This document shows positions 5,522 to 8,988 of a stretch of DNA of 40,967 nucleotides, piece by piece. The notes below the pieces were generated by a model. The model worked only from the letters and a program-made list of their open reading frames with translations, had not been told where the DNA came from and searched no databases. The DNA comes from Planctomycetota bacterium (GTDB lineage: Bacteria; Planctomycetota; Phycisphaerae; Phycisphaerales; UBA5793): the NCBI GenBank assembly GCA_963205185.1, contig CAUJHZ010000043.1, positions 1 through 40,967 on the forward strand. Reading direction: 5' to 3'. How positions within the stretch are numbered: the stretch's first letter is position 1; each line of letters opens with the position of its first letter. A program made the position numbers and the translations under genes.

Positions 5522-6136
5522 TCACCCGCCGTTCTTCGATCCCAGCGAACCGATCTGCGCCAGCGACTCTTCAACCAGCCGTTCGTGATCGGCGGCCTTG
5601 ATTTCGCGATGCAGAATGCGCCCGGCGATCTGCGTCGAGAGCAGCGCCGTCTCGGCGTACAACTCGTTGAGCGCCGCCCGCTTGGCCGCTTCGATCTCTT
5701 CCTTGGCCTTGTTCTTCATGCTCGACAGTTCCGCTTCGTTCTTCGAGCGAAGTTCATCGGCGACGCGCTGGGCGTCGGCCCGCGCCTGCTGGATCATCGC
5801 GCTCGCCTCGCCGCGCGCCTTGGCCAGCTCCTTCTGATAGTCTTCCAGCGCCTTGGTCGCCTGGGCCCGGGCGTTTTCAGCTGACTCGATCTCGGTGCGG
5901 ATCTTCGTCTCGCGGTCGTTGAGGCCCTTGAGAATCGGCCCCCACGCCAACTTGCGCAGCACGAAAAAGAGCGCTGCGAACATGATGATCGCCGCGACCA
6001 TCGCCGGCACGGCCGTCTCGGGTTTGGCCAGAAGGTCCGCGTGCGCGCCCGTCTCGCCTTCGGCCTGTTCAGCCAGCGCGATGGTTGCCTGAACAAGCGG
6101 CGTCGCGCCCAGAACGATGTAGGTCAGTTTCTTCAT
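5522..6136 (-). CDS. atpF: F0 ATP synthase subunit b
   Basis: Subunit b forms the peripheral stalk: one membrane helix anchors a long dimeric coiled coil that holds delta and F1. The 204-aa protein shows a transmembrane helix at about residues 49-66 (AMVAAIIMFAALFFVLRKL), then the diagnostic WGPILKGLNDRETKIRTEIE and about 110 residues of charged, Ala-rich coiled coil. Ahead of the membrane helix is an extra hydrophobic N-terminus (KKLTYIVLGATPLVQATIALA) that looks like a cleavable signal peptide; such an extension is seen in some bacterial b subunits. The ATG at 6136 has only a weak GGGA upstream. Confidence 0.95.
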   Translation of the reverse strand: MKKLTYIVLGATPLVQATIALAEQAEGETGAHADLLAKPETAVPAMVAAIIMFAALFFVLRKLAWGPILKGLNDRETKIRTEIESAENARAQATKALEDYQKELAKARGEASAMIQQARADAQRVADELRSKNEAELSSMKNKAKEEIEAAKRAALNELYAETALLSTQIAGRILHREIKAADHERLVEESLAQIGSLGSKNGG

Positions 6137-6294: not shown

Positions 6295-6630
6295 TTACGG
6301 CTTCAGGAGGAACACGCCCAGCAGAAGCACGACCACGCCGAACAGCGTGGCGCCTTCGACGAAGGCCGCGGAGAGCACCATCGCTCCGTTGATGTCCTTG
6401 GCTGCCTCGGGCTGCCGGGCCATCGACTCAACCGCGGAAGAGCCGATGTTGCCGATGCCCTTGCCGCCGCCGATGATCACCAGCCCCAGGCCCAGACCCA
6501 GACCCACGAATCGCAGGCCCGCGTCGGGAAACACCGTCATGCCGGCGGCGCCGAACGCCGTCGTCCCCGCCAGCAGGCAGGCCGCGATGATCGCGACGCC
6601 CGTGGCCACCATCAGTTTTCCAATCGTCAT
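6295..6630 (-). CDS. atpE: F0 ATP synthase subunit c, with N-terminal extension
   Basis: Subunit c is the proteolipid of the rotating membrane ring. The start is ATG at 6630, with GGAG six bases upstream; the open frame runs further but the extra 42 residues look non-coding. The 111-aa product has a Gly-rich first helix (about 43-70), the polar loop ARQPEA (71-76) and a second helix with the ion-binding carboxylate E92 (FVEGATLFG). The Gln and Ser that complete a sodium site in Ilyobacter-type c subunits are replaced by Ile/Gly-type residues here, which favours proton coupling. The family usually has 70-90 residues; the first about 30 (VATGVAIIAACLLAG) form an extra hydrophobic segment, either a signal peptide or a third helix. 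Confidence 0.93.
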   Translation of the reverse strand: MTIGKLMVATGVAIIAACLLAGTTAFGAAGMTVFPDAGLRFVGLGLGLGLVIIGGGKGIGNIGSSAVESMARQPEAAKDINGAMVLSAAFVEGATLFGVVVLLLGVFLLKP

Positions 6631-6752
6631 GTCACACACTCCATACGTCTTTGACACGGCAAGATCGTGTCGCTCGTTCGGGTCTACCCTCGCAGGCACG
6701 GACCAGCCGCCTTGCTCGACCAGCCTCGACCCGTATTTCTCTTTCGCGAGAC

Positions 6753-7976
6753 TCACGTCTCGAATGACAACTCCGGCGTCACGCCCATTTCCGCGAAGTC
6801 GGGCGTGTGCTTGTGATCGTGCCCGTGGGCATGGTCGTGCTCATGCTCATGGTCGTGGTCATGGTGCTGGAACATGCTGATGAACATCGTCGTCAGGAAC
6901 GCAAACACGAACGCCTGGATGAACGCCACGAGCAGTTCGAGCATTCCGATGGCCGTGGCGAAGATGATTGACGGAATCGAGATGAGTACGCCGCCCACCG
7001 GCCCCACCCCGTTCCACGCCATCGAGCAGAAGCCGAGCAGCGCCGAGAGCATGACGTGCCCTGCGGTCATGTTGGCAAACAGACGAACCATCAGCGCGAA
7101 CGGCTTGGCCAGCAGGCCGATGATCTCGAGCAGAATCGTCAGCGGCCACAGCGCCACGGGCGCGCCCAGCGTCAGGTGGTGAACGAAGCCGCCGAATCCA
7201 AGCGTGCTGATTCCCGAGCCGATGACCACGAAGATCGCGATCACCGCCAGCGCGCAGGTGACGGCGATGTTGCCCGTCGCCGTGCCGCCGATGCCGTGGA
7301 AGTGCGACGCCGTTTCGTCCTTGGTCAGGTCCTGGAACAGCACGAACGGCCCGAGGTGCATCGCGTGCGACTCGTGCCCCGCGTCTTCGGGCAGCAGGCC
7401 GACCGCTTCGAGTGATTCGCCCTCGTGACCCGCGGCCTGATGCGAATCGACTTCGTGATCCGCCTCGCCGCCTGCGGCATGGGTGTCTTGCGTCCCGCCG
7501 TCGTGCGCTGCGACGGATTCGACGTGCCCCGTCGCCGTCTCGTGCGAGCCGTTGATCATCCCGTCAAAGAGCAGGCTGGTCGCGTCAAGCAGCGGCACCA
7601 TCCCCAGCAGGTTGTTGAGGAGGATGAAGAAGAAGACGGTCCAGATGAAGGGGATGAACCGGTCGGTGTTTTTGCCCAGAACCGGCCGCGCCACGTCGTC
7701 GCGGAAGAACACGCAGAGCACTTCGATGAAATGGGCCAGCACGCCCTTGGTCACGTAGTCATGACTCGTGCCCGTCTTGCCCGTCGAGATCGCCCGCGCC
7801 GCGCGCGGCAGCAGCCAGAACATCAGCGCCGTCACGATGAGCATCATCAGGATGTGATTCGTCAGAATCGCCACCCCGTTGGGCAGGCTCAGGATCGGGT
7901 AGTCGTAGTTGTGGTGAAGCGGGTCGCCGCTCGCAAGCACGAGCGATGCGCCGGCCGCCAAAGACTCAGGGATCAC
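6753..7976 (-). CDS. atpB: F0 ATP synthase subunit a with His-rich insertion and tail
   Basis: Subunit a forms the two proton half-channels against the c ring. The essential arginine is R298 in MVRLFANMTAGH, and conserved helices precede and follow it (LEIIGLLAKPFALMVRLF, ELLVAFIQAFVFAFLTTMF). The start is GTG at 7976, with GGAGG seven bases upstream and a GTGA overlap with the atpI stop; the longer open frame is only the shadow of atpI. At 407 aa it is far longer than the E. coli protein (271 aa). The excess is a roughly 95-residue hydrophilic insertion (about 132-228, 12 His) after the second membrane segment, plus a C-terminal tail with 11 His in residues 371-390. Confidence 0.95.
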   Translation of the reverse strand: MIPESLAAGASLVLASGDPLHHNYDYPILSLPNGVAILTNHILMMLIVTALMFWLLPRAARAISTGKTGTSHDYVTKGVLAHFIEVLCVFFRDDVARPVLGKNTDRFIPFIWTVFFFILLNNLLGMVPLLDATSLLFDGMINGSHETATGHVESVAAHDGGTQDTHAAGGEADHEVDSHQAAGHEGESLEAVGLLPEDAGHESHAMHLGPFVLFQDLTKDETASHFHGIGGTATGNIAVTCALAVIAIFVVIGSGISTLGFGGFVHHLTLGAPVALWPLTILLEIIGLLAKPFALMVRLFANMTAGHVMLSALLGFCSMAWNGVGPVGGVLISIPSIIFATAIGMLELLVAFIQAFVFAFLTTMFISMFQHHDHDHEHEHDHAHGHDHKHTPDFAEMGVTPELSFET

Positions 7977-8443
7977 GCCGAGGCCTCCGCGAAGGGGGTT
8001 CGAGTCGTTTGAGTGCCTGATGCCGCGCGGCCGGCCCCGCCCGCGCTGGACGCGAGAATCGTCCGGCGGATGGCCAGCGTGCTGATCGGCTGGCAGATCG
8101 CGAATGCAGCGAGCACGGACAGCAGTGTCGCCAGTGGATCGAAGCCCGCGGCGAGGATCAGCCCCAGCCCGCCGACCACCACCACGCCGAAATGCACGGC
8201 GATGCCCGACATCGTCACCGCCACGGCCGAAAGCGGATTCGCCGCCACCTTGTGCAGCGCCCAGCGCGTGTGGAGGATGAACGCGATTCCGGCCGCCAGG
8301 CACGGCGTCGCCGCCTCGTACCACTCGACCGAAGCGCTGGCCAACGTCATGGCCGCACCGAGCAGCGACGCCCCTGCGACCAGCGCGGCCATCAGCGCCA
8401 GCGATCGCGGGGCAGCAGGTTGGTCAGTCTTTGCGTTCGTCAT
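7973..8443 (-). CDS. atpI: AtpI-like membrane protein of the ATP synthase operon
   Basis: A 156-aa protein with about four hydrophobic helices (ALMAALVAGASLLGAAMTLA, LAAGIAFIL, VHFGVVVVGGLGLILAAG, LLSVLAAFAICQPI) and a polar Thr/Ala-rich C-terminus. Its position between AtpZ and subunit a, and its topology, fit the AtpI/ATP_synt_I family, thought to help assemble the c ring or supply Mg2+; the sequence itself is poorly conserved, so the name rests mainly on context. It overlaps atpZ by 20 bases upstream and atpB by 4 bases (GTGA) downstream, so the three are translationally coupled. Confidence 0.75.
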   Translation of the reverse strand: MTNAKTDQPAAPRSLALMAALVAGASLLGAAMTLASASVEWYEAATPCLAAGIAFILHTRWALHKVAANPLSAVAVTMSGIAVHFGVVVVGGLGLILAAGFDPLATLLSVLAAFAICQPISTLAIRRTILASSAGGAGRAASGTQTTRTPFAEASA

Positions 8444-8705
8444 TTCTCTTGCGAGTCGGAGGATTGGTGATCCCCATCGCCTTTTTCACCGCGTTATAGA
8501 GGCCGCCGACCACTCCGAGCACCGTGCCGATGACCGTCAGCCACGGGAAGATACCGATCCACCGGTCGAGGCCGTATCCCAGCAGCCCCAGGCCCAGGAT
8601 CGAGGCCAGCATCTCCATCCACAGTCCGGAAAGCGCCCAGAGGCTGACCGACGAGCCGGACCGGCCTTTCGAGTCCTTCCGCGAAGGGTTGGGCTTGTCC
8701 GTCAT
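8424..8705 (-). CDS. atpZ: AtpZ-like small membrane protein (F0F1 gene 1)
   Basis: A 93-aa protein with a charged N-terminus and two hydrophobic helices separated by a short loop ([40 protein letters not shown]). The G-Y-x-L-D-x-W-h-G pattern between helices is typical of the AtpZ/AtpQ family encoded first in many atp operons. The ATG at 8705 has GGGAG five bases upstream; the longer open frame upstream looks non-coding. It is the first gene of the operon. The 283 bases before it, up to the divergent UPF0229 gene, must hold the operon promoter, but I could not identify convincing -35/-10 boxes. Confidence 0.85.
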
Positions 8706-8988
8706 TCCGGCTCCCATCCCGGCCGCGCTTCCGTACCATTTTTCACAATCCCACCGGAGTGGCGGAAACAATAGCCGACCGCCCCGCCATCCGCCACCTG
8801 ACTTTCCGCCCGCTTTGCCATTCCAACCCCGATTTTGCGGAACCGCGCCTACTTGCGGCCCGATCATAGAGATGCGGCTCTATCCTCCATTGAGGGCGGT
8901 CCGCACGCCGCCCGCATCCGCCGGCAACTCACGGGCATGGTCGCCCCACGTCTGGCCGGCACAGCGCCCGAGGCTGGCAAGGTCACGC

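Follow-up and report, generated by a model that had tools for sequence, protein, structure and literature searches.

The ATP synthase subunit a (AtpB) encoded in the window, the analysed stretch of 40,967 nucleotides, carries an insertion of about 80 residues rich in His, Asp and Glu in the loop between its second and third membrane helices (TM2 and TM3). The insertion is specific to one family of the Phycisphaerales, and we propose that it may serve as an enlarged proton-collecting antenna, with a probability that we put at about 0.4. AtpB also has a His-rich C-terminal tail, and the initial annotation had treated the two His blocks as one feature. They have to be separated: the tail lies on the opposite (cytoplasmic) side, occurs order-wide and has a published relative. 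The tail is of a known kind, and the periplasmic loop is a family-specific variant.

A protein of 407 aa with a His-rich insertion and a His tail had been reported at 6753-7976. Translation bears this out on the minus strand and not on the plus strand, where the frame is broken by stops. The features are as follows.

6753..7976, minus strand: atpB, ATP synthase subunit a, 407 aa, GTG start (PF00119, E 1.2e-48)
6295..6630, minus strand: atpE, c subunit, ATG within a longer ORF at 6295-6756 (PF00137, E 2.6e-13)
5522..6136, minus strand: atpF, b subunit (PF00430, E 2.2e-28)
8424..8867, minus strand: ATPase_gene1 (AtpZ-like) protein, upstream of atpB (PF09527, E 6.3e-12)
7299..7538, minus strand: insertion in the probably periplasmic TM2-TM3 loop, residues 147-226 (alignments; pLDDT < 50 at 156-224)
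7287..7376, minus strand: conserved anchor HESHAMHLGPFVLFQDLTKDETASHFHGIG, residues 201-230, which connects the variable part with TM3 (five-member genus alignment)
6804..6869, minus strand: His-rich cytoplasmic tail QHHDHDHEHEHDHAHGHDHKHT, residues 370-391 (tail in 54/54 order relatives)
7176..7178, minus strand: codon of H267, TM3-TM4 cytoplasmic loop (column of P. aeruginosa aE182)

A neighbouring ORF on the same strand overlaps atpB by 4 bases, and two more same-strand ORFs downstream were read by eye as the delta and alpha subunits. At the AtpI position upstream of atpB (7973-8443, minus strand) lies a protein without a Pfam match. A profile search found a single subunit a in the genome. 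AtpB scores 166.3 bits with PF00119 against a curated cut-off of 33.9; the profile aligns in two pieces (positions 1-80 and 81-217), and the break is exactly the insertion. The essential stator Arg and the channel residues are present (R298, N302, H307, E347 and Q354; the E. coli residues used for comparison were aR210, aN214, aE219, aH245 and aQ252), the Glu/His pair (H307/E347) standing in the reverse order to that of E. coli, an arrangement shared by nearly all relatives sampled. With the functionally required Arg and channel residues all in place, AtpB is, judged by its sequence, a normal, working F-type motor subunit with additions.

The TM2-TM3 loop of AtpB comprises 106 residues between P128 (end of TM2) and G235 (start of TM3). 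E. coli has 22 residues at this place; the loops of 54 relatives from the order measure 19-53 residues, and those of the remaining a subunits sampled 6-41 (237 sequences in total, among them planctomycetes, Gemmatimonadota, Bacteroidota, Acidobacteriota, a myxococcus and leptospires). The initial annotation had put the excess at about 95 residues (132-228). The insertion itself stands, but residues ~132-146 and 225-235 are matched by counterparts in relatives, which leaves a real excess of about 80 residues (~147-226). The earlier counts of 12 His in residues 132-228 and of 11 His within 20 residues in the tail were correct; the former segment further contains 8 Asp, 10 Glu, 1 Lys and 0 Arg, and residues 138-226 hold 11 His and 18 Asp/Glu, together with a single Lys/Arg. 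Against the background of eight other ORFs of the window (His frequency 1.25%), the binomial probability of 11 His is ~2e-8 for residues 138-226 and ~7e-16 for the tail (370-391), both segments having been chosen post hoc; the Lys+Arg depletion of the insert, likewise a segment chosen post hoc, has a probability of ~6e-4. Within the insertion, a variable part rich in His, Asp, Glu, Ala and Gly (about 147-203) is followed by the conserved anchor.

In the AlphaFold2 model of AtpB, helices 79-126 and 233-269 flank the insertion, TM2 and TM3 are placed normally, and residues 156-224 have pLDDT values below 50, indicating predicted disorder. The model has the subunit a fold: it matches E. coli 6oqr_a (Z 16.4, rmsd 3.5, 252/266 residues), P. 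aeruginosa 9o1a_a (Z 17.0, rmsd 3.5, 261 residues) and 9itj_T (Z 17.6). Since the topology of E. coli subunit a is established, this superposition puts the loop on the periplasmic side. The model and the 6oqr_a superposition agree with the earlier proposal, in which the insertion joins TM2 to TM3 and faces the periplasm near the entry half-channel. By homology to E. coli, the insertion probably lies at the proton-entry funnel on the periplasmic face. The antenna reading calls for titratable residues at the periplasmic end of the entry half-channel, and both the alignment and the predicted fold place them there.

All six family genomes examined, from two genera, carry the insertion, and their loops measure 85-140 residues. 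An assembly error, the doubt raised in the initial annotation, and a chance ORF are both ruled out: five other genomes carry the insertion in frame (six in all, two genera). The suggestion that it might be lineage-wide held at the level of the family and failed beyond it, since the insertion is absent from the 54 order relatives and from the other members of the class and phylum sampled. When the loop and tail columns are left out of the tree, five insertion-bearing genomes form one branch with a support of 100. The sixth genome (G005, sister genus) was left out as too gappy, its gene being cut by a frameshift. This split lies near IAKPFA|LMVRLF, just before the essential Arg, and is probably an assembly indel; the downstream frame also ends in a His-rich tail. 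Since the five carriers form one supported branch, the insertion has a single origin on the tree, and as far as these sequences indicate it was acquired in the family ancestor and is family-specific. Expansion of a repeat at the DNA level was rejected: no repeat unit is visible by eye in the codons, and the His block mixes CAT and CAC, so that fresh slippage does not account for it. A literature search, with subscription papers outside its coverage, found no comparable periplasmic loop insertion.

The insertion changes rapidly in sequence and far less in composition. Compared with the genus members except G003 (the nearest relative, 97% identical, excluded from the identity ranges), residues 138-205 show an identity of 0.50-0.55 with many gaps, versus 0.78-0.84 in the core, and dN against three relatives is 0.39-0.48 in this stretch versus 0.12-0.14 in the core. 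Each copy of the loop nevertheless keeps 8-12 His, at most 4 Lys+Arg and 8-24 Asp+Glu. Among the loop sites, 6-7/9 His were kept versus 14-20/44 non-His, non-acidic residues (small numbers, with kinship ignored). The anchor HESHAMHLGPFVLFQDLTKDETASHFHGIG, with the consensus HLGPFxLFQDLTKxxTASHFHG, is nearly invariant in the genus (five-member alignment), and the sister genus carries a looser version, LGKLIFFQNMTVTDRVESHYEGIG. Outside the family, a search of 397 genomes of the class gave only weak matches to the anchor (E 4e-7 or weaker), mostly falling on the shared loop end (GGTAT motif) and TM3; genomes G002, G003 and G005 were absent among the matches listed and had probably not been drawn.

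Such turnover, together with the predicted disorder, is also what a tolerated, near-neutral expansion would show, that is, an exposed loop drifting under weak compositional limits without a dedicated proton or metal role. Translocated loops are poor in Lys and Arg (positive-inside rule). The Lys/Arg depletion would therefore be expected in any translocated loop, and on this account the loop is acidic and poor in Lys/Arg so that it can be exported across the membrane. Still, the loop has been kept in all six genomes of the two genera with 8-12 His each, it ends in a conserved anchor, and the nonsynonymous rate against the nearest relative is low (dN 0.015 and dS 0.22 for residues 138-205 versus G003). 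We consider such a tolerated loop somewhat unlikely.

In the antenna reading, the family ancestor would once have gained a disordered, His/Asp/Glu-rich periplasmic loop between TM2 and TM3. Since imidazoles titrate near neutral pH and carboxylates are plentiful in the loop, it would work as a mobile antenna and buffer, collecting protons at the edge of the aqueous funnel through which the entry half-channel is supplied. The loop would enlarge the capture zone, of which the E. coli counterpart is a small carboxylate and imidazole rim. The anchor would keep the variable part close to TM3, and in the variable part, as we infer, composition would matter over exact sequence. On the cytoplasmic face, the His tail may play the matching part for the exit half-channel, perhaps together with H267. 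A proton antenna with a capture radius of about 40 A has been postulated for Fo, and an entry funnel lined with carboxylates and imidazoles has been described in E. coli (PMC8754430, PMC9447477). The Fo funnels of E. coli and Rhodobacter likewise have periplasmic carboxylates and imidazoles around the entry channel (PMC8754430, PMC9447477), but their rim is short and ordered, whereas the AtpB loop comprises 80 residues and is predicted to be disordered. The family-wide presence of the insertion in frame, its location on the entry side and the composition kept despite drift argue for an antenna. On the other hand, the other Phycisphaerales sampled manage with loops of 19-53 residues, rapid change is equally expected of a tolerated low-complexity loop, and the published effect of a His-rich segment concerns a tail on the cytoplasmic/matrix side and not a periplasmic loop. 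How protons arrive at the entry channel fast enough is debated in bioenergetics, with bulk diffusion, surface diffusion and a dedicated antenna as candidates; for this debate, a natural enzyme with an oversized, removable His/acid loop and relatives without it form a clean experimental pair.

The published effect comes from the ice worm Mesenchytraeus solifugus, whose ATP6 is described as having a C-terminal His-rich extension that follows the final membrane helix and lies on the matrix/cytoplasmic face; transferred to E. coli, this tail reportedly raised ATP synthesis (Dunkley 2025, cited in PMC12796488). AtpB likewise has a His-rich stretch after its last membrane helix, a likeness that is one of description and not of compared sequences, the ice-worm extension belonging to an animal mitochondrial ATP6. 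The account of this protein given in PMC12796488 (Dunkley, Shain, Klein 2025) mentions no insertion on the proton-entry side. In AtpB, the 11 His lie within 20 residues (371-390) directly after helix 326-370. The initial annotation had the His block ending the protein; it is indeed near the C-terminus, but 17 ordinary residues (TPDFAEMGVTPELSFET) follow it.

The tail lies on the cytoplasmic side and is ordinary in the order, where tails with 4-15 His were present in 54/54 relatives. His tails also occur in several other families of the class and under record titles that name Bacteroidetes, Chlorobiaceae, Acidobacteria and Myxococcus. Mapped on the tree, the presence of a tail changes 16 times, with 8 changes forced by well-supported branches. 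Families f8, f9, f11, f19 and f22 of the class have no tail and carry instead a His-rich TM3-TM4 cytoplasmic loop of 52-157 residues. It is, like the AtpB insertion, a low-complexity His-rich insertion in subunit a, but in a different loop and on the opposite membrane face, in proteins with short C-termini. The two elements, His-rich TM3-TM4 loop and His tail, occurred together in 0/237 a subunits. As proof of their equivalence this exclusion is weakened by the essentially single origin of the loop type (2 changes). His-rich segments of the cytoplasmic face are thus common in planctomycetes and present in other phyla, at no fewer than two positions of subunit a, so that the ice-worm tail does not stand alone. 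In several near-complete genomes of the class (f10, f15, f16 and f23), the class-level search gave no subunit a match.

The His-rich segments might alternatively bind metal: the loop and/or the tail would hold Zn2+ (or Ni/Cu), gating or ordering the proton half-channels, similarly to P. aeruginosa, in which a probable Zn at the cytoplasmic channel of subunit a is held by aE182, aH186, aD287 and aH289 (PMC12796488). HxHxH runs readily bind metals, and a heavy-metal P-type ATPase encoded in the genome has a His-rich N-terminus as well. The potential ligands are partly alike: H267 occupies the column of aE182, and the alignment of the AtpB model with 9o1a_a runs to residue 374, which lies opposite chain residue 289 and brings H374 near aH289. 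However, the position of aH186 is taken by Gly (G271), so that the columns hold H267, G271 and tail His and not the four ligands of the P. aeruginosa cap; AtpB differs further in its 11 tail His and in its periplasmic insertion, which has no counterpart there. Other His of the tail may form a metal site. The H267 column is His in 123/123 tail-bearing sequences versus 23/90 with neither tail nor loop. This association is one-way perfect in raw counts only; phylogenetically independent pairs gave 1-2 for and 0 against (p 0.5, not significant), and a claim of co-evolution of H267 with the tail was dropped. In the loop, the variable part lacks a conserved strict His spacing. We regard metal binding as rather unlikely, though still a serious alternative.

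An assembly or docking role, in which the loop would contact subunit b or a respiratory complex and its His content would be incidental, is quite improbable: the conserved anchor (LFQDLTK...SHFHG) could serve as a docking segment and would sit near the b1 N-terminus, which lines the funnel in E. coli (PMC8754430), but no partner was identified and most of the insert is predicted to be disordered.

We also searched the genome for five alternating His codons. The only coding-looking frames were those of AtpB, the N-termini of CoxA and CoxC, and the heavy-metal P-type ATPase (the last three identified by eye, CoxA also by PF00115). The two cytochrome c oxidase genes are at the following positions.

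Near C76:93146 (locus G000:C76:84000-103900): CoxA, His-rich N-terminus
Near C76:95488 (locus G000:C76:84000-103900): CoxC, His-rich N-terminus

These hits hint at His-rich segments on proton-handling complexes. Because the CoxA and CoxC N-termini and AtpB are all His-rich, one could imagine that the synthase of this family bears a proton brush on two sides, at entrance and exit, disordered and rich in His and acidic residues, which together with the Cox N-termini would form a local proton circuit between pump and synthase, independent of bulk protons; we consider this a very long shot. The His-rich N-termini of cytochrome c oxidase subunits I and III read MTTLPVDHASHAHDHAHHHEIGFIRK and HHGVSGHDHSHDHGHGHG, respectively, and that of CoxA is kept in five genus members and patchy across the order. 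The heavy-metal P-type ATPase, with its long His-rich N-terminus, is encoded on G000:C46 near 26951.
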